From the IMG/VR virus record IMGVR_UViG_3300034072_002211, positions 124,001-188,000 of that record: a stretch of 64,000 nt of DNA; one strand, written 5' to 3'. Both the position numbers and the translations under genes were made by a program. Every line of letters starts with the position of its first letter. Within the stretch, counting starts at the first letter, position 1. This DNA is from a virus. Below are positions 26,066 to 46,372 of the stretch, piece by piece. A model generated the notes under the pieces. The model was not told the DNA's origin and did not search any database. It saw nothing but the letters and a program-made list of their open reading frames with translations.

Positions 26066-29000
26066 TTAAATTAGCGTCTTACCAGTGACCAGGACGTTGG
26101 TGCTGCTGATATTGATGTTGCTGTTGTCAATAGTAATGGTCTCTTCCACAACATCATCAACGTCGAGATCGCCGGATAGATCCCAAGCATTGCTTGCAAT
26201 CTTAGTTAGCAGGGCTCGACCAAACTTGCGGCTGATCTTGCGTCCGAATGGTGTATTGATGACCACACCGCCTGCTGGAACAATTTCCGTCTTACCATTA
26301 CCAGTTTGAACAATCTGGATCTGCGTGCCCACAGCAAACTGAACGTTGGTGTTGCTTGGAACGACAACCTGATTGTCCGTCGCAAAGTTCCTACGAATAT
26401 AGGAGCCAGCATCGGCTGCGGCTAGATTGTAGGACGAGCTAGTAATGGGCGTGATCTTGAGGCTGTTTGCGTCAACCTGCTTTTGACCAACCCACGTCCT
26501 GGTGCGCGAGAAGTAGCGGAACAAGTAGAACGTCAGGCCATTTGGCGAGATGTTACCTGCCGTGCTAGAGATCCAAGTAATTGGCTTGTTCTCACTCGTA
26601 GCAAACACCACGTTCCTGCCGCCGATGTTGTCCTGCTTTACTGCCACGAGGACTTCACTGTAGAGTTCACCAGAAGTATTCAGAGGACCAGGTGCGTAGG
26701 CCGTTGCTTCTGGAGTCTTGAGAGTCAGCGTTGCGCCAGCAGTCAAGGTGACATGGAAAGTGTTACCTGACTTGGGATCAATCATACCGTCAGGAACAAC
26801 CGCATTGGTGTCCTCGTAACGGAGGTTGGAACCACTGGCCACATAGTGGGCCATGAAGTTGCCTTCGTCTGGCTGAACGTCATATGCCAGTCGTGGACCA
26901 GTGATGAAGTCCTGGTCGCTGCGACGCTTTACTCGGGTAAAGGACCAAACACAGTCGCCGGACTTGTAGAGCTTGCTGAATGAGCCATTGTTGTAGAAGT
27001 TGACATTGGTCAGTTCCAGCTTGTTCTCAATTCCATTAGAGCTCGCATCAGCCACGCTGTAGAGTCCCACCGTGTAGGTGGTCTCCACATCAGGCTGCTC
27101 AATTTCTGCCTGAATGAAAGTGGTAGTCAGGTTGTCTCCCGGATGCTCGGGATCAGGAATTGGGTTACCTTCCTCGTCCAAGAGCTCAACAGTGATATAG
27201 TTGCCGTCAGCGTCTTGAACCCTGGCTAGCGGATTTTCCGGCGTATCCTCGGTTGCTTCATTACCGTCTTCAGTGATGAATACTGGAACACCATTTTCCC
27301 ACTTTGGCAAGCTGGGCATGGAAACAGAAATCGTGTAGCTCTCTGGCATGATGGAGCCCACATTTTCCATGACCAGGACACCACCATTGTGGCGAATACC
27401 CTTCATCAGTGGGGCACCACTTACCAGCGTGCTAGAACCTGCTTCAACGCGGAGACCAGTCCAACCATTATTTGGCAGACCCAAGTTCTGGAGAACAAGT
27501 CGACCACCTTCATCACCAATAGTGCTGTTTTCAATCATGCCCTGAACTGTGGTGTTGATGAAAGTAACATCACCCACAATTTGCTGGCTGACCACAATAG
27601 CTGGCAAGTCGCTCTTTCCATTTGGACCACGCAGGATCTGACAGTCACGAACTTCGGCAGAACCCACGCCGTTGACCATCATCAGTGTTGCGGTCGGATC
27701 GTTGATGTCCTGATCACTGTTATCCAGTGTGATCTTGCTCATCAGGAAGCGATCAACATTGTATTCCACCTGCAAGCGGCCCTTGATCACCGAGTTGGTA
27801 GCACCAAAGAAGCCTTCCAGCGCAATGTTCTTGATGTTGGTCTTAACAAAAACGTCCTCATTATACTCGCCACCAAGCAGCATAATGGTGTAGGTCACAC
27901 CATCATCATTGAGGGGGACCATGTCCATTGCTTTCGCAATAGTCTTATAAGGGTTGTTGAGCGAGCCATTACCCGTTGTATCATTGCCCTGATTACCAAC
28001 AAAGAAAGTATTCGCAATGGTCTGGTAGAAGGTTTGAAGATTGGTCCAGGCAAGTTGACCACTTGCCGTCAGGGTTAGATACTGACCTGCTACGCCAGTG
28101 GTTGCCGGCCAATTTGTCCCGTTGAGGGTCAATACGGGGCTTTGGATAATAACAGAGCCACCGGGCTGTGCCTGGATAGCCACACCCGCATTATTGACGC
28201 GAACACCCGCAGTAGGAGTGGAAGAGTTAAAGAGGGTCACACCGGTGGTTGTGGAGCCTACGATTGAAAAACCGGCCACATCTAGATTACCACCAAGTAC
28301 AGGAACAGTGTCAGCTGAAACCTTAACAATCTTGGTCCTCAGCTGGCTCATTGTTAGGCGCTTGGCCTTGTTGTCAACTGCCGAGAGGTAAATGAGCTCG
28401 TCAGTATCCACAATACCAGGAGCGGCAGTCAGCTTGTCAAGTGCCAGATCAACGACCGGAGCCTCATCCTCTCCACTTACCTTGATACCCTCGCCGCCAG
28501 TGACGCTAGTAACCGTGCCAGCACCCGCGAGCTGCCAGGACAGAACACCGCCCTCACTCGACAGTACCCACTGGCCCGCAGTAGTTGGCTGAACAAGTTC
28601 ACGGCTAACATTACCGGTGCCACCGATCAGTAGAGAACCATCGGTAAGCTTCTGGTTCATCAGACCATAGTTGATTGTCTTGGTGCCAGTAGCAGTCAGA
28701 CGACCCTGAGCATTGAACGTGAACTGTGGCAAAACAATAGAGCCGGTGCCGCTGCCCATCGAGACATCACCAGTTGCTCCGATTACCTGACCATCGCCAT
28801 GACCAGTAGCCCAAGCGATGGTGTAAGGAACACTAGCATAGGCAGTCAAACGACCCTTGGCGTCAAAGGACAGGGTGTAATCACCAGTGCTGGTGTTGAT
28901 GTTTGCTGGCGAACCAATAGTGTTGCTCAGCGTGAAATTGATCTCAAGAGTTGGATCGGCTGCGCCAACGACTACCGCGTTAGCAAAACGATCACTCTGA

Positions 29001-31276: not shown

Positions 31277-31738
31277 ATGGGTATTAGATTTATTGGACGT
31301 TACATCCCCAATGGCCGTCTCCGTTTCCGCAATCCCTACAAACCACCTGCTGATCCCAAGGCTCCACAGTGGGTCATAAATACTGGTCACATTGGTGCCT
31401 ATGGTGAAGGCGACGCGGTAGACTTGGAACTGACTTGTACAGATCCAGACGGTGACGTTCAGACCTATGAAGTCATCTCTGGAGAACTTCCACCAGGCAT
31501 CTCCCTCAACTTGTTCTCTGGTCGTCTGATTGGAACGGTTGGTTCAGTGGAAGAGGATACCAACTATACTTTTACAGTTCTTGTGACTGATAAGACTGGT
31601 TTGACTCTCCAAGGAACTTTCAGTCTTAGTATTCTGAATGTTGCTTCTCAGGTAACATGGATAACACCAGAGGGAAACATTGGTGAACCGGCAGTCGGTG
31701 ACAGTTATCGCAATATGGTGGAGGCAACGAGCAAGTAA
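31277..31738 (+). CDS. Cassette 1 protein A: Ig-like, ends inside a domain
   Basis: 153 residues, ATG 31277 after ACAGGAGATCCAC. After a short N-terminal motif (IRFIGRYIPNGRLRF) there is one full He_PIG-type domain (YEVISGELPPGISLNLFSGR). Then comes only the first half of a second domain (VTWITPEGNIGEPAVGDSYR). The stop overlaps the next start as TAATG. The missing half of the domain is the beginning of the next gene. Its paralogue is 34083-34559. Confidence 0.85.
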   Translation: MGIRFIGRYIPNGRLRFRNPYKPPADPKAPQWVINTGHIGAYGEGDAVDLELTCTDPDGDVQTYEVISGELPPGISLNLFSGRLIGTVGSVEEDTNYTFTVLVTDKTGLTLQGTFSLSILNVASQVTWITPEGNIGEPAVGDSYRNMVEATSK

Positions 31739-32877
31739 TGACTAACCAACTCAAATATAAAATCGTTGGTGGTGCCTTGCCTGTTGGTGTTACAATTGAT
31801 GAGAATACCGGCAAGCTAGAGGGTCCAATCGACTTCAGCAATCTAGGACTAGGCCCTGTGTGGCAAAGTCCTGCTGCTGGCTCTCTGGGCACTTTTGACG
31901 AACTAGATACCATTGAGCTGCCTCCCCTGACTGCTACCTTGAGTAATGGTGATAGGGCAAACATGGGTCTGATGAGCGATGGTTCTTATCTACCTTGGGG
32001 ACTAGTCTTCGATCCTGACACTGGTGTGATCAGCGGGACTATCTCGGAACTATTGGCCGGACAGGAAAACGACGCGGCAACTCGTGATGGTCCAATCTGG
32101 CAAACAGAATTTGGTAAGCTGGCTGACTTTGATGAAGGACAGACCGCAGATATTACCTTGGTAGCCCAGGCACGCAACGAAAAGACTGTAACGGTCTATG
32201 ACGTGGTAAGTGGTGCTTTGCCTTGGGGTCTAGTCCTTGACAGTTCTACTGGTAAGATCTCTGGATCTACTGCGGATCTATTGGCTCCTGGTCTCACGAT
32301 TGAAGTGCCAAAGCTTCCTGCTCCTGTGTGGAATACTCCTCAGGGAACGATCAAGATTGTCAATGAGTTTGAAACCGTGACCGGCCTAATGGTTGCCGCA
32401 ACACCAGCAAGTGGTCGCACGATGATCAAGTATGTGATCAGTAATGGTGCTTTGCCATTTGGACTCAACATGAATTTCACCACTGGTGAGATCACTGGCA
32501 CTGTTGCGGAACTGGTCGGGCAGACTGATCCAGCATTCTACGAGGGTGACAAGGATCCAACAATTTCTGACACGGTTTCCGTTCAAGGATCAGCCCAGGC
32601 AATAACAAATAGTGGTTCACTTGGATCTTATGCCAAAGGTGCGATCATAACAGTCCAATTCTCTGCCACTCCATATCCTGGTCGAACAATTAGGAACTGG
32701 TCTATTGAGAATGGATCATTGCCATTTGGACTGACACTAAATCAGGATACTGGTGTAATCAGTGGCACTATTGAGAACACCTTGAGGACTCAGTCCAGAT
32801 CCTATTCTTTCACCATGCGCTTTGTTGATAATACTCATGCTTATGCGCTTCGTTCTTACACAATTACAGTTCAGTAA
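31738..32877 (+). CDS. Cassette 1 protein B: tandem He_PIG Ig-like domains
   Basis: 379 residues, ATG 31738, with GGAGG inside gene A 13 bp upstream as its likely ribosome site. It begins mid-domain (YKIVGGALPVGVTIDENTGK) and continues with four more Ig-like domains, each with the WGLxxDxxTGxISGT signature. It is in the -1 frame relative to gene A. A rigid multi-domain stalk is the likely role. Paralogue: 34556-35698. Confidence 0.85.
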   Translation: MTNQLKYKIVGGALPVGVTIDENTGKLEGPIDFSNLGLGPVWQSPAAGSLGTFDELDTIELPPLTATLSNGDRANMGLMSDGSYLPWGLVFDPDTGVISGTISELLAGQENDAATRDGPIWQTEFGKLADFDEGQTADITLVAQARNEKTVTVYDVVSGALPWGLVLDSSTGKISGSTADLLAPGLTIEVPKLPAPVWNTPQGTIKIVNEFETVTGLMVAATPASGRTMIKYVISNGALPFGLNMNFTTGEITGTVAELVGQTDPAFYEGDKDPTISDTVSVQGSAQAITNSGSLGSYAKGAIITVQFSATPYPGRTIRNWSIENGSLPFGLTLNQDTGVISGTIENTLRTQSRSYSFTMRFVDNTHAYALRSYTITVQ

Positions 32878-32889
32878 AGGAAGTCAAAC

Positions 32890-34029
32890 ATGGCAGTCTT
32901 TCCATTCACCGTGCGAGCAACTGACAGTGAAGGTTCTTTCGCTGATCGTCAGTTCAGTATCACGGTTCGTAACTCCAAGGTAGAACGCTACCTTGCTATC
33001 AATACATCAAACGCTTACACCAGTTCTGATGGCAATTCCTGGACTCTTCGCCCAGGAATGGGTGGTGTTACCTGTGCCTATGGTAATGGTATTTGGCTAA
33101 TCCTAGGTCTTGATTATATCAGGAAGTCAAATGATGGTGTGAATTGGTCCTATATTGCCAAGGCATCTCTGTCTATTGTGGACAATGATGGGGTTGTGGT
33201 CACAACTGGTGAGTGGCCTCCTATTACGTCTGTTCATCGTCTGGTCTTTTTGAATGGTAAGTTTCGCTTTGTTGGTAATACCAACTCTATCTACTGCTGG
33301 AGCTCTGAAGACGGGGTGACTTGGGTAAGATCAAAGATTCCTCAAATCGCTGGCAGTTTTTCAAATGCTCTTGGAGGCGTGCCTTTTCAGATCTACTCAG
33401 ACGGAAATACTCTTATCGTCAACAATCTGTATTCCGGTGGCACCGGCTCCCTACAGATGGGTTGGTATTCTACTGATGATGGAAAAACTTGGACCCAAGT
33501 AAGGAATATTGCTCTGGCCTCTTCTGCTATACAGTATAGTGGTAACCTGATTCGTATCAATGGTCTTTGGTTGTCTTTCCAGAATCAATCATCAAGTGTC
33601 TTTTATACCTATTCGTATTCTACGGATGGTAACAATTGGACCAATGGTACTATGAATGGCTCTTGGATAAATTCTTCCTACTATGTCAACACCCGTCGAA
33701 TTTTCTATGCCAATGGTACGATCTATGTTCCAGTTACCAAAGGTAGTTCACTCAATGGGCCAATGGAATATCTAACATCCACCAACGGTATCAACTGGAC
33801 ACCTAAGCAGTTTCGTGCCTGGAGCACAAGTTATGGTGACAGTGGTATGACTTACCGCAATGGTGTATTCTTGGCGTATTCGTCATACGGCGGTGGTACA
33901 GCTCTTTCGAATGATCCACTCAATGTCCCAAGTGGTGGTCTGAGGCTTTCGACCAATGGCAACACTTGGACTGAGGTGAACGTCTACAACACCACCGCAA
34001 CTCAGTTCACTGACGTAGCCGCCATGTAA
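32890..34029 (+). CDS. Cassette 1 protein C: Asp-box beta-propeller
   Basis: 379 residues, ATG 32890 after AAAGGAAGTCAAAC, 12 bp from gene B. The first 30 residues (FPFTVRATDSEGSFADRQFS) are the closing strands of a He_PIG domain without its beginning. The rest holds repeated Asp-box-like motifs (SSDGNSWTL, SNDGVNWSY, STDDGKTWTQ, STDGNNWTN, TSTNGINWTP, STNGNTWTE), indicating a six- or seven-bladed propeller of the sialidase/BNR shape. No sialidase catalytic set was identified. A carbohydrate-binding tip is a reasonable inference. Paralogue: 35709-36872. Confidence 0.85.
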   Translation: MAVFPFTVRATDSEGSFADRQFSITVRNSKVERYLAINTSNAYTSSDGNSWTLRPGMGGVTCAYGNGIWLILGLDYIRKSNDGVNWSYIAKASLSIVDNDGVVVTTGEWPPITSVHRLVFLNGKFRFVGNTNSIYCWSSEDGVTWVRSKIPQIAGSFSNALGGVPFQIYSDGNTLIVNNLYSGGTGSLQMGWYSTDDGKTWTQVRNIALASSAIQYSGNLIRINGLWLSFQNQSSSVFYTYSYSTDGNNWTNGTMNGSWINSSYYVNTRRIFYANGTIYVPVTKGSSLNGPMEYLTSTNGINWTPKQFRAWSTSYGDSGMTYRNGVFLAYSSYGGGTALSNDPLNVPSGGLRLSTNGNTWTEVNVYNTTATQFTDVAAM

Positions 34030-34033
34030 AGAC

Positions 34034-34063
34034 AATGGGGTGGATTCTAGAATCCACCCCATT
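34034..34063 (+). terminator. Perfect 15-bp inverted repeat terminator
   Basis: AATGGGGTGGATTCT is followed with no spacer by its exact complement AGAATCCACCCCATT, five bases after the stop of cassette 1 and 20 bp before cassette 2. Confidence 0.7.
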
Positions 34064-34082
34064 TCCATGGAATAAGTAAAGC

Positions 34083-34559
34083 ATGATTAGGTTTACTGGT
34101 AGATATCGTCCTGAGGGAAGAATAATTGTCTCGCGGATCACAGTGATTCCGCAGGAACCAGAACCTGAACCAGTAAACCTTGCTCCTGAGTGGGTAGATA
34201 TTCCAGGATCACTTGGTGTCTATGAAGAAGGCACCACTATTGACATTGTCCTAGAGGCTACTGACCCTGAAGCAGACATTCTTCAGTGGACAATCTACGA
34301 GGGAACTCTTCCAACTGGGTTGGTTCTTAATCCCAATGATGGCAGACTGTCGGGCACATTAGCTCAGCAGAATAATACCAAAGACTTCAACTTCCGCGTT
34401 CGAGTCACTGATACCAAGGGCAATAAGCTAGAGGGTCTCTTCTACATGACTGTCGTGGACACCACAACCACTGTGAGCTGGACAACTGACTCTGGGTCTC
34501 TTGGTTCACCCACTGCTGGTGAACCATTCGAAAAGCAGCTGGAGGCTAAGAGTGTATGA
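34083..34559 (+). CDS. Cassette 2 protein A: Ig-like, ends inside a domain
   Basis: 158 residues, ATG 34083. Same plan as 31277-31738: N-terminal IRFTGRYRPEGRI motif, a Pro/Glu linker (PQEPEPEPV), one complete He_PIG domain (IYEGTLPTGLVLNPNDGRLS), and half of the next (VSWTTDSGSLGSPTAGEPF). ATGA overlap with gene B. No late TATAAATA motif is seen here, so it may be read through from cassette 1. Confidence 0.85.
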   Translation: MIRFTGRYRPEGRIIVSRITVIPQEPEPEPVNLAPEWVDIPGSLGVYEEGTTIDIVLEATDPEADILQWTIYEGTLPTGLVLNPNDGRLSGTLAQQNNTKDFNFRVRVTDTKGNKLEGLFYMTVVDTTTTVSWTTDSGSLGSPTAGEPFEKQLEAKSV

Positions 34560-35698
34560 CCAGGAAAGTCATGTATCAAGTTACCGCAGGTAACTTGCCA
34601 CCTACACTCGAAATGGGCGAAGATGGACGCATACGCGGCACCACCGCGCATAGTGATGGTCCAGTATGGGATTCAGCTCTCCCGGAAAGTCTTGGTGAGT
34701 TTGATGAGTTCGAGAATGTTGGCATAATCCAACTGACTGCGACACCTGACTCTGCAAATCAGAGGACCATAGATTCCTACACCATTACGACTGATTCCTA
34801 TGGTATGCCTTGGGGCCTAAGGATCTCCGATGATGGTAAAATCACCGGTACCGTCGCTGAGCTCAAGTATCCTCAGAAGTTCTACTTTGGTGAAGATGAA
34901 CGCCCCACTTGGACCACTCCCTTTGGTTCTCTGGGGACCTATGATGAAGGTGTGAGTGCCTCGGACATTGACTTCACAGCCGTCCCTATTGCTGGTCGTT
35001 CTATTGCCCACTATACTGTGATTGATGGTGCTTTGCCTTGGGGCATTCGCATGGAGAGCAATGGTAACTTAAGGGGCAACATTTCTGACCTCAAGTGGAC
35101 TGATGGTCCTTGGACTCCGCCATTTCCCCTTCCGGTTTGGACTACTCCAGCGGGTAAGCTTATCACGCTAAATGAGGAAGAGAACATTGCTCTGACTATT
35201 ACGGCAACTTCACCAGCAGGCAGAACCATTTCCCACTATAGGGTGGTGGATGGCAACTTGCCTTGGGGTGTTCGTCTTGATTCCGATGGTGTATTCAGAG
35301 GTTCAGCAGCTGAACTCAAGAAGTATAGCCCACCAGAGCCACAGGATGCCATCACTGCACCTGTATTCAGTGACACCGTTCTGATCAATACTGTACCTAC
35401 CACTGTATTGAATGGTGGTAGTTTGGGATCATTCCAGATTGGTATCAACCAAGTCTTTGTATTCGACTTCACAGTTGCGGAGGGTAGATCACCAATTCAG
35501 ATCATTATTGAACATGAACCAGATTACATGCCACCATTTGGTTTCAGGCCACGCAATACTAATGGTTTGGAACCAAATACTCTCTTGGGCCGTTTCAACG
35601 CTGAAACTACAAAACCAGGTACCTATCCAGTCAAGGTCAGCATTTTGGATTCTGCTTATCAGAAAACCTCAAGGACCTACAGCATTACATTAACTTAA
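34556..35698 (+). CDS. Cassette 2 protein B: tandem He_PIG Ig-like domains
   Basis: 380 residues, ATG 34556, with GGAGG ten bases upstream inside gene A. It begins mid-domain (YQVTAGNLPPTLEMGEDGR) and carries four further Ig-like domains with WGxRxxxxGxxxG signatures. It is one residue longer than its counterpart and divides at the same point. Confidence 0.85.
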   Translation: MTRKVMYQVTAGNLPPTLEMGEDGRIRGTTAHSDGPVWDSALPESLGEFDEFENVGIIQLTATPDSANQRTIDSYTITTDSYGMPWGLRISDDGKITGTVAELKYPQKFYFGEDERPTWTTPFGSLGTYDEGVSASDIDFTAVPIAGRSIAHYTVIDGALPWGIRMESNGNLRGNISDLKWTDGPWTPPFPLPVWTTPAGKLITLNEEENIALTITATSPAGRTISHYRVVDGNLPWGVRLDSDGVFRGSAAELKKYSPPEPQDAITAPVFSDTVLINTVPTTVLNGGSLGSFQIGINQVFVFDFTVAEGRSPIQIIIEHEPDYMPPFGFRPRNTNGLEPNTLLGRFNAETTKPGTYPVKVSILDSAYQKTSRTYSITLT

Positions 35699-35708
35699 GG
35701 AAGACACC

Positions 35709-36872
35709 ATGACAACTTTTCCATTCACAGTCAGGGCAACTGATGACCAGGGTGCCTTCGCGGATCGTAACTTTTCAATTACTGTTAGGAACTCTAAGGT
35801 TGAGCGCGTTGCTGTCCTAGGTAACTCAGCTATTTGGTCTAGCCCAACCGGAACTGGTACGTGGACTAGGCGCGATGCGCTAGGCGGTTCCACGTTTGCC
35901 TATGGTAACAATACTTGGGTAATCATTGGTGCATCTACCAATCAGGTAAAGATTTCCTATGATCTAATCAACGTTCAGATCATTGAACCAAAAGATGCTC
36001 AGGGTAACTCCTACTCGTTCAACAACGTGGACATTAGCAATGTCATCTTTGTAAATGGTAAGTTCTACTTCGTTGCTCTAAACCAGGTCGATGGCAAGTA
36101 TATGATGCTTTCTAGCATTGACGGAATCTCTTGGGACATGGATGAGATCCCAGCCAGCCTCTTGCCTACAAATATCAAGCCCCGCACCTTCCCCACGTGG
36201 AACACTACAAGCCAGCTAGTCAATTTGGCTTGTAGCGGTGGTGTGATGACAATGGCTTTCTGGGCCAGCGGTGGTAACACTGGCGCAGCACCATTTGATG
36301 CGTTTGGTATCCGCTCGCTCGACTATGGTAAGACGTGGACCAAGATGACTGATATCAGCCGCTCATCTGTTCGTAGCTCTGGACTTTTCTACTTCAACGG
36401 CGTCTATATTGCTCTGTGCCCTTATTCTTCTAATAGCAACAATGCTTATCAGCACCTAACTTCAACTGATGGTTTGGTGTGGACCAATGTCATCCACAAT
36501 ACTGCGACTACTGGCGTTCATGCCTTCTATAGGGATAGTGTTGCTTACTTCTATCCTGTCAAGGTCATGTATAACAATGGTACTCTGAACATGCTTTATG
36601 GCAGGACGAACCAGTCTACCACTGGTTTGGAATGGATCAGGAACTATTCCTACGATGCTATTTCGTGGAGCCAGTCCGCGCTAACTTTCGTTACTAATGC
36701 TTATCAGGCCACAACAACTCACTCCAGGCATGTAGGCACGTTTGGTAATGGTAGGACGTTCTTCTTGAACTCTACTATTCCATCGGTAACTTACCAGTCT
36801 GGTGGTTCTTACTTGAGCCAGAGTTTGCCAAATCCCGTTGGTAGCTATTACGAAATCCTCACTATGGGCTAA
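35709..36872 (+). CDS. Cassette 2 protein C: Asp-box beta-propeller
   Basis: 387 residues, ATG 35709 after AAGGAAGACACC. The first 35 residues are nearly identical to those of its paralogue (FPFTVRATDDQGAFADRNFS ... NSKVER). The propeller part is strongly diverged with fewer clear Asp boxes (SSIDGISWDM, SLDYGKTWTK, TSTDGLVWTN). A conserved anchor with a variable binding part is what duplication for altered host range would give. Confidence 0.85.
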   Translation: MTTFPFTVRATDDQGAFADRNFSITVRNSKVERVAVLGNSAIWSSPTGTGTWTRRDALGGSTFAYGNNTWVIIGASTNQVKISYDLINVQIIEPKDAQGNSYSFNNVDISNVIFVNGKFYFVALNQVDGKYMMLSSIDGISWDMDEIPASLLPTNIKPRTFPTWNTTSQLVNLACSGGVMTMAFWASGGNTGAAPFDAFGIRSLDYGKTWTKMTDISRSSVRSSGLFYFNGVYIALCPYSSNSNNAYQHLTSTDGLVWTNVIHNTATTGVHAFYRDSVAYFYPVKVMYNNGTLNMLYGRTNQSTTGLEWIRNYSYDAISWSQSALTFVTNAYQATTTHSRHVGTFGNGRTFFLNSTIPSVTYQSGGSYLSQSLPNPVGSYYEILTMG

Positions 36873-39664: not shown

Positions 39665-40792
39665 TTACCAATCAGAGCCACCGCCGCCTCCACCCGACGA
39701 GCCGCCGGAATCATACGAGCTCGAGGACGAGCCGCTGTCGTAGCTGCTGGACGAAGAACCCCAGGACGAGCTGCTGGACGAGGAACCATAAGAGGAACTG
39801 GACGACCAGCTGTCCCGCGAACGGCGGTCTTCTTCCTCACGGTCGCGTCGACGACGCGCTTCACGCTCCTCTTCGTCCCTGCGAGCCCTGCGACGGGCCT
39901 CTTCAGCAGCCACCGCAGCCGCAGCGTTGCTGGTCGAGGAAGTGGTCGTGCGGGCGCTCGTTGGGGTCCGACCCACGGGCGCTGCCGGTTTGGGACGGGA
40001 AGGAACGTAGGTGGAAGCCGGTGGGGTCGGACGAACCGGAGCAGGCTTGGGCTGAGTGGCTGCGCGGATTCGCGCTTCCTCGGCTTCGCGCAAGCGGGCG
40101 GCTTCACGTTCGCGAGCCTGTTCTGCGTAGCGAGCCTGACGGGCTTCTTCCTCACGCTTGGCCTTGCGGAAGTTCAGGAGCAGGATGATACCGCCGACGA
40201 GCAGAATGCCGCCGATGATGAACAGGACCAGCATTCCAGCATCCTTGCTCTGTGCCTTCTCGACCGCGGTGGGCTGAGTGCTGGCCGCAAGTTGCTGGGG
40301 CGTCACCACTTCCTGGCTGATCTCGTTGCCGATGCTCGTAACACCGAGGACGATCGCGTCAGCAGGCTTGCCGGCCTTCATGAGCGGGACCATGCTGTCG
40401 GTGATGACGGTCGAGCGCAGATCGGTCAGGACACCTTCGAGGCCGTAGCCGACCTCGATCTGGAGGCGCCGAGGATTGCTCATCGAGACCAGCAGGAGGA
40501 CGCCGTCATTGCGGGTCTTGTTGCCAATCTTGTAGAAGCGGAAGGCGTTGTTGATGTAGTCCTGGACCGGCGCGCCGTCGAGTGTCGGCATGGTGAGGAC
40601 CACGATGTGGTGATGGGTGCGATTGTAGATCTCGCGGATTTGACCTTCCAGCGCAGCTTCCTGGGCTTCGGTGAGAAGATCGGCTCGGTCAACAATGGAT
40701 TCATTGCTGGCGAGTGGCGGCGGGTTGGGAATTGCGGCGAGGGCAGGAGACCCAAGGGTCAGCGCGGCCAACGCCAAGAGGATCTTCTTCAT
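39665..40792 (-). CDS. Secreted/membrane TPM-domain protein (YgcG-like)
   Basis: 375 residues from ATG 40792, chosen because AGGAGAT precedes it and a signal peptide (MKKILLALAA..., cleavage after ALA about residue 19) starts there. Residues about 32-158 form a TPM domain (SIVDRADLLTEAQEAALEGQ; GVLLLVSMSNPRRLQIEVG), as in the YgcG/Psb32 family. A transmembrane helix follows (186-206), then a highly charged helical region (210-260), a Pro/Thr-rich linker, an Arg/Glu segment and a Ser/Gly tail ending GGGGGGSDW. Such proteins sit in the envelope with unknown function. It is unusual in a phage and may alter the host envelope. Confidence 0.88.
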   Translation of the reverse strand: MKKILLALAALTLGSPALAAIPNPPPLASNESIVDRADLLTEAQEAALEGQIREIYNRTHHHIVVLTMPTLDGAPVQDYINNAFRFYKIGNKTRNDGVLLLVSMSNPRRLQIEVGYGLEGVLTDLRSTVITDSMVPLMKAGKPADAIVLGVTSIGNEISQEVVTPQQLAASTQPTAVEKAQSKDAGMLVLFIIGGILLVGGIILLLNFRKAKREEEARQARYAEQAREREAARLREAEEARIRAATQPKPAPVRPTPPASTYVPSRPKPAAPVGRTPTSARTTTSSTSNAAAAVAAEEARRRARRDEEEREARRRRDREEEDRRSRDSWSSSSSYGSSSSSSSWGSSSSSYDSGSSSSSYDSGGSSGGGGGGSDW

Positions 40793-40818
40793 AGGATCTC
40801 CTGGTTTTAGGTGTCTCA

Positions 40819-40846
40819 CCTATACAATCAGTTAACCAAGTGTCAA
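40819..40846 (-). promoter_or_regulatory. Promoter, TTGACA-N16-TATAGG
   Basis: Minus strand -35 TTGACA (40846-40841), -10 TATAGG (40824-40819). Drives the TPM gene. Confidence 0.7.
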
Positions 40847-42969: not shown

Positions 42970-43275
42970 TTATGGTAACACGGTGCGCGGAATACCAGTC
43001 TTAGGATTCATGACGATCAGGATCTTTTTCCTGTCCGTGAAGGCGTCCACCTCCACGACCCACGACTCGTCATTTTCTTTGGTCACAATGCGGGCTGTGC
43101 TCGTGGGCCCGTCTAGTTTGATCGCAAGATTTGCCAAGGATGTCAGCACGTCAAGGACGCCGTAATCGGCATCAGGCATGTGTCGTTCGCGCAGCCGTTC
43201 ATAGGCATGGCGATAGGGTTCTCGCTTCTTGGCAAGTTCTTTGCGTTGACGCGGAGAGAGGCGATCTTCTCTCAC
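42970..43275 (-). CDS. Unknown basic protein
   Basis: 101 residues, GTG 43275 (GTGA with the upstream stop). Very basic N-terminus (RLSPRQRKELAKKREPYRHA) followed by an alpha/beta part (WVVEVDAFTDRKKILIVMNP). Third gene of the gltX operon. A nucleic-acid-binding role is possible. Confidence 0.72.
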   Translation of the reverse strand: MREDRLSPRQRKELAKKREPYRHAYERLRERHMPDADYGVLDVLTSLANLAIKLDGPTSTARIVTKENDESWVVEVDAFTDRKKILIVMNPKTGIPRTVLP

Positions 43276-43802
43276 AATCCCTCAATGAGTTCCGAGTATT
43301 TCTCTTCACTGATATCAAGGGCACGAAGCCAGAGATTGAAGTAGAAGTCAAGCTCATCCGAGCGATCGTGGGTGCCTTTGTGATAGCGCAGAAAGTCCTT
43401 GCGGTTCTGAACTTTGTCAGCGACCAGCATCACGTTGACAGGCTGGAGCGGGCTCAACTTGAGAGGCTTCTTGGGATAGCAGCCAACCCGCCCCCAGGAG
43501 TCGGGTCCCTTCTCAATCTGGTTGCTCAGGAAACCATTGGCGATATTGCGATATTCCATCGCATAGAGGACGATCAGCGGGTGGAGATCATCACACTGAA
43601 AGAAGTTGTCTCGCAGGTCAGGGTCGGCCTGGAAGATAGGATGAACCGCGTAGGCTTCCATCACCACTTCGTCGGCGCCATAGCGGTTCAGGATCTCGAT
43701 GCCCTCGTTGATGTGATTGATCAAGAGGACACCGGACCTTTCAGTCCGCTTATCGCCATAGAACTGAACGATTTTCTTGTAGCCTGGAGCCTCTTGGATC
43801 AT
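43272..43802 (-). CDS. HD-domain-like protein of phage type
   Basis: 176 residues, ATGA-coupled to gltX. Residues 50-80 (AYAVHPIFQADPDLRDNF; HPLIVLYAMEYRNIAN) and the later VMLVADKVQNRKDF plus FYFNLWLRALDI resemble RelA/SpoT-like HD folds seen in phage proteins, with a possible His/Asp set but no tight HD doublet. It may be an inactive or diverged hydrolase. Coupling to a tRNA synthetase gene suggests a shared translation or stringent-response theme, which is inference. Confidence 0.65.
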   Translation of the reverse strand: MIQEAPGYKKIVQFYGDKRTERSGVLLINHINEGIEILNRYGADEVVMEAYAVHPIFQADPDLRDNFFQCDDLHPLIVLYAMEYRNIANGFLSNQIEKGPDSWGRVGCYPKKPLKLSPLQPVNVMLVADKVQNRKDFLRYHKGTHDRSDELDFYFNLWLRALDISEEKYSELIEGL

Positions 43803-45049
43803 AGAACGTCTCTGATTCGCTTGAGTGTCTCGTCCTTGCCCAGCAGGAGCATGACGTCATAGATGGGCGGACTCACCGTGCTACCAGTGAGCGCGGCGCG
43901 CAAGGGTGCGACCACGTTGCCCAGCTTGAGCTCCATGTTCTCCGCATAGGCGTGGATGACGTTCTCGAGATTGGCATGGTTCCACTCCCAGAACTCCAAC
44001 CGTCCAAGCAAGTCGGCAAGGATCTGCTTGTCCAGCTTTGCCTGGGCCTTCTCCTCGATCACAAGGGGTCGCTGAGCCCAGAGGAACATCGTCCCCTCAG
44101 CCATTGCGTTGAGGTCCGTGCTGCGCTCTTTGAGGGCCGGAATGGCCCGCTCGAGGAGCGCATCGTCATACTTGACCCCGCGAGCGTCGAGGATACGAAC
44201 CACTTCCGAGGAAAGCTTTCCATCCGCGGTATTGCGGATGTGCTGTCCGTTGAGGTTCATGAGCTTCTTTTTGTCAAGGCGCGCAGGGTTGCGTCCCACG
44301 TCCTTGATGTCGAACCACTCGATTGCCTGAGCCATCGAGAAGAACTCATCGTTGCCGTGGCCCCAACCCAGCTTGGCGAGATAGTTGAGCATTGCCTCGG
44401 GGAGGATGCCCATATCCTGATAGTCGGTGACAGCCGCCGCACCTGTGCGCTTGCTGAGCTTCTTGCCATTCTCGTCCAGGATGAGGGGAATGTGGGCATA
44501 GACAGGAGGCTCCCAGCCCATTGCCCTGTAGATGCTCAGCTGTCGGAAGGCATTGTTGAGGTGATCGTCGCCCCGGATCACGTGGGTGATGCCCATGTCA
44601 TAATCGTCCACGACCACGGCCAACATATAGGTCGGCGTGCCATCCTTGCGGAGGATCACAAAGTCGTCGATATCCTGGGGCCACTTGACCGTACCCTGGA
44701 CGAGGTCCTCGATGACCTGCTCACCCTTGATTCCTCGGATGCGGACCGCGCCGTCATCCAGGTAAGCCATATCGCGCGCCAGAAGCTCTTCGGCGACGGC
44801 GACGTGCCGATCAACCCGCTCACTCTGGAACAAGGGATGCTCGTCAGCCTTGAGGCCAAGCCAATTGAGGCCATCAAAGATAGCCTGGACTGCTTCGGGT
44901 GTGTTGCGCTCCTTATCAGTGTCTTCCACACGAATCAGGAACTCACCGCCCATATGCCTTGCATAGAGCCAGTTGAAGAGGGCCGTGCGGGCTCCACCGA
45001 TATGGAGGTAGCCTGTGGGCGATGGCGCGAAGCGGGTCACAACAGTCAT
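43799..45049 (-). CDS. gltX: Glutamyl-tRNA synthetase, compact phage form
   Basis: 416 residues; bacterial GluRS is usually about 465-490. It should activate glutamate and load tRNA(Glu). The class I signatures are present: PSPTGYLHIGGARTALFNW with HIGG at 16-19, and KLSKR at 197-201. The GluRS-specific segments RVEDTD (40-45) and VVVDDYDMGITHVIRGDDHL are intact. The Cys-containing insertion that normally follows the LLARDMAY region is missing (LDDGAVRIRG joins directly), which accounts for much of the shortening. The anticodon-binding domain is present but short. First gene of a three-gene operon. No clear SD precedes ATG 45049. Confidence 0.93.
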   Translation of the reverse strand: MTVVTRFAPSPTGYLHIGGARTALFNWLYARHMGGEFLIRVEDTDKERNTPEAVQAIFDGLNWLGLKADEHPLFQSERVDRHVAVAEELLARDMAYLDDGAVRIRGIKGEQVIEDLVQGTVKWPQDIDDFVILRKDGTPTYMLAVVVDDYDMGITHVIRGDDHLNNAFRQLSIYRAMGWEPPVYAHIPLILDENGKKLSKRTGAAAVTDYQDMGILPEAMLNYLAKLGWGHGNDEFFSMAQAIEWFDIKDVGRNPARLDKKKLMNLNGQHIRNTADGKLSSEVVRILDARGVKYDDALLERAIPALKERSTDLNAMAEGTMFLWAQRPLVIEEKAQAKLDKQILADLLGRLEFWEWNHANLENVIHAYAENMELKLGNVVAPLRAALTGSTVSPPIYDVMLLLGKDETLKRIRDVL

Positions 45050-45985: not shown

Positions 45986-46372
45986 TTATTCTGCGGGGAT
46001 CGCCTTGGGCTTGCCGTCTTCGTCGATGTGGACGAAAATGTAGAGCGCCTCGCAGACCTTGGTCTCGTCGCCCGTGCAGTTGCGGCGAGCATAGGTGCAC
46101 ACCTTTGTCTGCATCGACGATGTACCGGTCTTGATGATATCAGCGTAGATGATGACCTCGTCGCCCACCTTCACGGGAGCGAGGAACTTGAATCCCTCCA
46201 CTGCCACAGTGACAGTTCGACCACCTGCTCGACGGCGAGTGACCGCACCGGCGGCCAAGTCCATCTGGCTCATCAGCCAACCACCAAAGATGTCTCCATC
46301 CGGATTGGTATCGTGAGGCATAGCGGTCAGGATGCGAACAGGCATCCGCGGGCAGTTGTTCTGGTCCATCAT
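45986..46372 (-). CDS. yciA: YciA-type acyl-CoA thioesterase
   Basis: 128 residues, the length of bacterial YciA (about 130). These hot-dog enzymes hydrolyse acyl-CoA to free acid and CoA. The signature NPDGDIFGGWLMSQMD (23-38) matches YciA closely, with the family Asp at 38; VAVEGFKFLAPVKVGDEV (57-74) and the ending GKPKAIPAE are also conserved. ATG 46372 and ATG 46369 are adjacent and no good SD is visible. Found here between small unknown phage genes. A role in host lipid or CoA metabolism during infection is inferred. Confidence 0.92.
   Translation of the reverse strand: MMDQNNCPRMPVRILTAMPHDTNPDGDIFGGWLMSQMDLAAGAVTRRRAGGRTVTVAVEGFKFLAPVKVGDEVIIYADIIKTGTSSMQTKVCTYARRNCTGDETKVCEALYIFVHIDEDGKPKAIPAE

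Follow-up and report, generated by a model that had tools for sequence, protein, structure and literature searches.

Results

GluRS gene and its surroundings

The window, as we call the whole 64-kb stretch analysed, is taken from a virus record of 277,444 bases (positions 124001-188000). A gene for a bacterial-type glutamyl-tRNA synthetase (GluRS) lies in it, with a gene of the family phrog_21276 immediately downstream (Table 1).

Table 1 Features of the GluRS locus, in window coordinates
Feature	Position	Strand	Basis or remark
Glutamyl-tRNA synthetase gene, 416 aa, bacterial GltX type	43799..45049	-	ATG start; Pfam, NCBIfam and PDB matches; purifying selection
HIGG motif (class I 'HIGH' signature), residues 16-19	44993..45004	-	Translation; E. 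coli GltX alignment
pZBD deletion junction, between residues 98 and 99	44753..44758	-	E. coli residues 99-136 absent; same deletion in L019
KLSKR motif, residues 197-201; S199 = E. coli Ser239	44447..44461	-	Alignment
C-terminal anticodon-binding domain, residues 294-415	43805..44170	-	Pfam Anticodon_2, E 4.6e-30
Codon of R309 (= E. coli R350)	44123..44125	-	Alignment of phage and bacterial enzymes
Downstream gene, 176 aa, phrog_21276, HD-like at best	43272..43802	-	Overlaps GluRS stop by ATGA

The protein scores 270 bits with Pfam tRNA-synt_1c and 105 bits with Anticodon_2, and matches the full NCBIfam model TIGR00464 (gltX_bact) at 443.7 bits (cut-off 289.95), while the NCBIfam GluQRS models score under their cut-offs. 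Thus, it is a two-domain bacterial GluRS rather than GluQRS, and the anticodon domain sets it apart from GluQRS/YadB. The HIGG and KLSKR signatures are intact, as the initial annotation stated, and align to those of E. coli GltX. K226 sits where proteobacterial enzymes have Arg (E. coli R266), a conservative change at a residue reported to be essential in E. coli (PMC3927822). The same annotation made the protein 50-70 residues shorter than bacterial enzymes, which holds for total length, but about 40 of these residues belong to the deletion described below and the remainder to slightly shorter ends and loops. The family phrog_35649 matches the protein at 369 bits and is nonetheless listed as of unknown function, an annotation gap. 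A promoter and terminator scan around the gene gave nothing above chance.

Coupling to the downstream gene was confirmed as an ATGA overlap at 43799-43802. Gene order is conserved, as a phrog_21276 gene adjoins GluRS in all six relatives, but the overlap recurs in only one of them (L005). phrog_21276 is a jumbo-phage family with a marginal HD_4 match in 5 of its 24 members (best E 0.0044), its profile found no match among solved structures in the PDB, and the 'HD' dyad of the downstream protein reads HP. The suggested HD-type, stringent-response module therefore retains its overlap but has a marginal HD assignment and no conserved tight coupling, and the idea is weak.

Among other genes of the window, a YciA-like acyl-CoA thioesterase (45986-46372, minus strand) lies near the GluRS gene. 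A TPM-domain protein is encoded at 39665-40819 (minus strand), and four relatives have a homologue on this side of GluRS as well. Similarly sized ORFs (379, 379, 158, 380 and 387 aa) stand in a row at 31738-36872 (plus strand); these are probably a tandem paralogous family, and several match the same genes in relatives.

Clean loss of the pZBD

The Cys-containing segment that was expected to be cleanly deleted is indeed missing. E. coli GltX (471 aa, MG1655) pairs C98 with residue 98 and P137 with residue 99, so that 38 residues are absent and the flanks align directly. The best PDB match is interrupted only once, at query 97/102 versus 105/148 of a 475-residue enzyme. The lost sub-domain, the pZBD, spans 38-40 residues, as the segment measures 14 residues here versus about 54 in alphaproteobacterial enzymes, and the 14-residue remnant, by our own boundaries, contains no Cys. 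Bacterial GluRS with the pZBD cut to 10-17 residues and the zinc motif missing have been defined as group V (PMC4381286), and the window enzyme agrees with this in remnant length and lack of Cys.

pZBD is deleted in 7 of 212 bacterial GluRS, and contact with GatCAB has been proposed as its core role (Chongdar et al. 2015, PMC4381286). It has been proposed to be dispensable where GlnRS or GluRS2 handles tRNA-Gln, and all published group V members but one occur in genomes with GlnRS or GluRS2 (PMC4381286). The phage has no GlnRS and a single GluRS; GluRS2 is present in its likely host group. Loss of pZBD is not automatically neutral, because the activity of E. coli GluRS falls 100-fold or more in most of its pZBD chimeras (PMC4381286).

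Stepwise shrinkage in a phage clade

Scans of IMG/VR yielded nine further phage GluRS. L019, from a 436-kb phage, is 69% identical to the window enzyme and shares its complete deletion. In L001 and L002 (465 and 417 kb; 68-69% identity), the pZBD segment is 22-23 residues long, and in L003, L004 and L005 (57-58% identity) 56-57 residues. In the more distant L024, L026 and L027, it is 49-62 residues. Because the independent contig L019 shows the same deletion, an assembly error is unlikely. Near-identical phages were absent from the phage collection, in which matches named Listeria, Staphylococcus, Enterococcus or Salmonella 'phage' were left out as unannotated and possibly host contamination.

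In a maximum-likelihood tree, the window enzyme, L001-L005 and L019 form one seven-member clade (100/100). The window enzyme pairs with L019 (99/95), L001 and L002 pair as their sister (99/94), and the four group jointly (97/95). The tree positions taken with the pZBD lengths indicate that pZBD shrank within a phage-only lineage, with long versions in the outer branches and short or deleted ones in the inner pair.

The signature motifs are invariant across the phage clade. Because pairwise dN between phage GluRS copies is about 0.25 against near-saturated dS (about 2), the gene is judged to be under purifying selection and kept functional. These values make it very improbable that the gene is a decaying or non-charging paralogue, comparable to GluQRS or to moonlighting copies, in which the deletion would be an early mark of decay. 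Such a reading would agree with the importance of the missing sub-domain for E. coli GluRS (PMC4381286), but besides dN and dS, the anticodon domain is present, the motifs do not vary and an independent phage at 69% identity has the same deletion.

Synthetase and tRNA genes of the phage

Large genes of the record include phage DNA polymerase, tail sheath, baseplate wedge and clamp loader families, from which the source is recognized as a jumbo phage with a contractile tail, and the phage origin proposed for the GluRS is upheld. The record also encodes CysRS, SerRS, ValRS and LysRS. The LysRS is of the PRK00750 family, which we take to be class I. Outside the 64-kb window, in which tRNA and Rfam families were absent, the record has 25 tRNA genes. 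Two of them are tRNA-Glu(UUC) and tRNA-Glu(CUC), as would be required if the enzyme charges a phage tRNA, a role that had been suggested and that these genes support. Genes with a Gln anticodon, looked for alongside, were not found in the record, but it breaks off within a tRNA array and is perhaps incomplete. Relatives with longer, nearly complete genomes have 49-67 tRNAs each, with both Glu and Gln isoacceptors. Both tRNA-Glu have U11-A24, U13-G22, C4-G69 and a 4-nt variable loop, which presumably match the E. coli Glu identity set. A SerRS gene (L017:12497-13945, minus strand) is directly upstream of a tRNA-Glu(UUC) gene.

Synthetases had been called rare in phages. This is true of phages generally but not of huge phages, which can carry as many as 67 tRNAs and 15 synthetases, GluRS included (PMC7162821).

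CUA-anticodon tRNAs and a mini synthetase

Another unusual synthetase was observed in this phage. A mini class II synthetase (L008:6978-7796, minus strand) accompanies a CUA-anticodon tRNA (L008:8717-8792, minus strand), i.e. G000 26978-28792. The synthetase has 272 aa, a GlyRS-like core and no anticodon domain, and is 72-81% identical in five relatives. In G000 and all seven close IMG/VR homologues (L208-L214), the mini synthetase (about 271-278 residues) is downstream of a same-strand CUA-anticodon tRNA. The cultivated Sinorhizobium phage Phosso (L233:3594-4753) has the same pair in the same CysRS-tRNA-synthetase order, in keeping with alphaproteobacterial hosts. No CUA tRNA is present near the more distant homologues examined, among them those of Caulobacter, Brevundimonas and Xanthomonas jumbo phages. 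On this gene arrangement, the two are possibly a dedicated UAG-reading pair, which is more surprising than the pZBD-deleted GluRS and may deserve its own study.

A second CUA-anticodon tRNA is in the same phage (L017:5834-5912, minus strand), and no mini-type synthetase was found beside it. Class II synthetase core fragments of about 180-200 aa lie near tRNA genes in G001, G002, G004, G005 and G006.

Two other readings of these tRNAs were set aside. Charging by GluRS was rejected because the CUA-anticodon tRNAs lack the U11-A24 pair of tRNA-Glu. In-frame UAG recoding was considered for two very long ORFs in L007 that read through several TAGs (1440 and 1167 codons). They match no NCBIfam or PHROG family, and were judged to be antisense frames over a 3,699-codon plus-strand ORF (L007:2475-13571). 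Genome-wide recoding is not supported either, because TAG ends about 11% of ORFs of at least 150 aa.

Origin and tRNA specificity

The best 80 bacterial matches of the window enzyme come from alphaproteobacterial or poorly placed Pseudomonadota genomes (45-53% identity), and the pZBD segment is 47-59 residues in all 38 bacterial enzymes measured. The phage host is thus probably an alphaproteobacterium.

Among 16 matching bacterial genomes, GlnRS is absent in 15 and GatB is present in all. Two GluRS were found in 13 of 14 genomes, and the phage-like copy is the higher-scoring one. In the sole genome with GlnRS, the phage-like type occurs alone and adjoins glnS. Here 'GluRS1' refers to the enzyme for tRNA-Glu and 'GluRS2' to that for tRNA-Gln (PMC3927822). 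If the phage-like type is GluRS1 and the other GluRS2, a lone phage-like type is what is expected in a genome with GlnRS. Neither GlnRS nor full GatB was found in the phages. A short match to the C-terminal part of GatB, possibly YqeY-like (28 bits, 209-codon frame), is at G000:43646-43843 (minus strand), with comparable matches in G005 and G006.

The position of E. coli R350 splits the two types. It is Arg in all seven enzymes of the phage clade and in 16 of 16 GluRS1-type alphaproteobacterial enzymes, and Asn in 12 of 12 GluRS2-type enzymes (a thirteenth, L197, was left out as it had been read in the wrong orientation). We assume that E. coli R350, R309 of the window enzyme, is the Thermus Arg358 position. 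The effect of Arg358 does not extend to all GluRS, as the Thermus rule failed in H. pylori (PMC3927822).

By its closest relatives and by this Arg, the window enzyme falls with the GluRS1 type and not the GluRS2 type. It is probably specific for tRNA-Glu, that is, discriminating, because its closest bacterial counterparts represent the type that is retained in the presence of GlnRS. Specificity matters because close relatives of the phage also carry tRNA-Gln genes. As these relatives lack GlnRS, a non-discriminating enzyme could be conceived that also makes Glu-tRNA-Gln for host GatCAB and does not need pZBD for this. The pZBD-deleted GluRS of M. infernorum, which occurs without GlnRS or GluRS2 (PMC4381286), would be a precedent. 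We regard this as improbable, however, since the enzyme is closest to the GluRS1 type, has the Arg of GluRS1 and resembles the only type retained beside GlnRS.

Discussion

We conceive that this jumbo phage encodes a functional, discriminating GluRS that derives from alphaproteobacterial GluRS1, charges phage and host tRNA-Glu and can dispense with pZBD. We hold this to be highly likely from the comparisons of sequences and gene contents. The gene would have been acquired long ago. As a member of a wider charging set encoded by the phage, its product would keep phage and host tRNA-Glu charged when the capacity of the host becomes limiting or has been shut off. With a GluRS1 that would not serve GatCAB as its ancestor, the enzyme would not pass Glu-tRNA-Gln to GatCAB, for which the likely hosts would use a separate GluRS2, and this could be why pZBD was lost. 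The other parts of the catalytic domain would then hold the acceptor arm, as they must in the known pZBD-deleted bacterial enzymes.

Counter-defence had been suggested as another purpose. Resistance to HipA by a change near KLSKR is not supported, as S199, which corresponds to the HipA target serine of E. coli, is kept in all seven phage enzymes. An extra GluRS could instead act by dose, outcompeting or titrating a HipA-type kinase or another GluRS block rather than serving routine charging. GltX of Caulobacter is phosphorylated by HipA1 and HipA2, and cells that overproduce it show lower persistence (PMC7029023), which suits alphaproteobacteria as likely hosts. On the other hand, the target serine is retained, and the preliminary site in Caulobacter is the N-terminal Ser2, in a peptide not common to E. 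coli GltX (PMC7029023). Moreover, a general charging set is indicated by the 25 tRNAs of the phage and by its synthetases, which serve four or more amino acids besides Glu. Defence by dose is therefore quite improbable, and charging of tRNA-Glu is preferred.

Loss of pZBD might even be adaptive if it detaches the enzyme of the phage from the GluRS-GatCAB transamidosome of a host with indirect synthesis of Gln-tRNA, and so diverts glutamate and tRNA-Glu to phage translation. We consider this unlikely, though worth stating. If it were true, the seven-member clade, with full, half and deleted pZBD, would be a ready series for separating the two proposed roles of pZBD.

Whether pZBD holds the tRNA acceptor arm or docks GatCAB is a question that the phage series could address in any case. 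Its members, 57-70% identical to the window enzyme, belong to a single clade and offer cleaner comparisons than the scattered bacterial cases, and dependence of the likely hosts on GatCAB adds to their value. The charging set is further evidence that huge phages bring much of their own tRNA-charging machinery.

Comparison with known enzymes

The type of enzyme is not new, because pZBD-deleted bacterial GluRS, huge-phage GluRS and a 448-residue PDB entry exist. Stepwise loss of pZBD inside one phage clade looks new, as an earlier description was not found in the open-access literature, while phage GluRS and pZBD-deleted bacterial GluRS are already published.

The GluRS of huge phages (Al-Shayeb et al. 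2020, PMC7162821, Extended Data Fig. 7a) are likewise encoded with tRNA sets and several synthetases. However, the subtree shown there groups with Bacteroidetes hosts, whereas the window clade adjoins Alphaproteobacteria, and the metagenomic huge-phage enzymes of the phage collection, LR756501-4 and LR745206, are full length (about 480-497 codons) as compared with 416 aa. PDB 8jpv, the 448-residue GluRS, aligns with the window enzyme across the deletion point without a long gap, but is about 32 residues longer and matches in the deletion region at only about 27-32 bits. Alphaproteobacterial GluRS1 (e.g. Sphingomonadaceae, Parvibaculum) are the nearest cellular kin, yet retain the long pZBD segment.

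The group V enzymes of Acholeplasma, phytoplasmas, Akkermansia, Methylacidiphilum, Phycisphaera and Neorickettsia (GluRS1) have lost pZBD to the same extent (PMC4381286). They are products of cellular genes, whereas the loss in the window enzyme took place within the phage clade. Published classes comprise short (31-36 residues) and deleted pZBD, and the two sister phages, at 22-23 residues, are intermediate between them.
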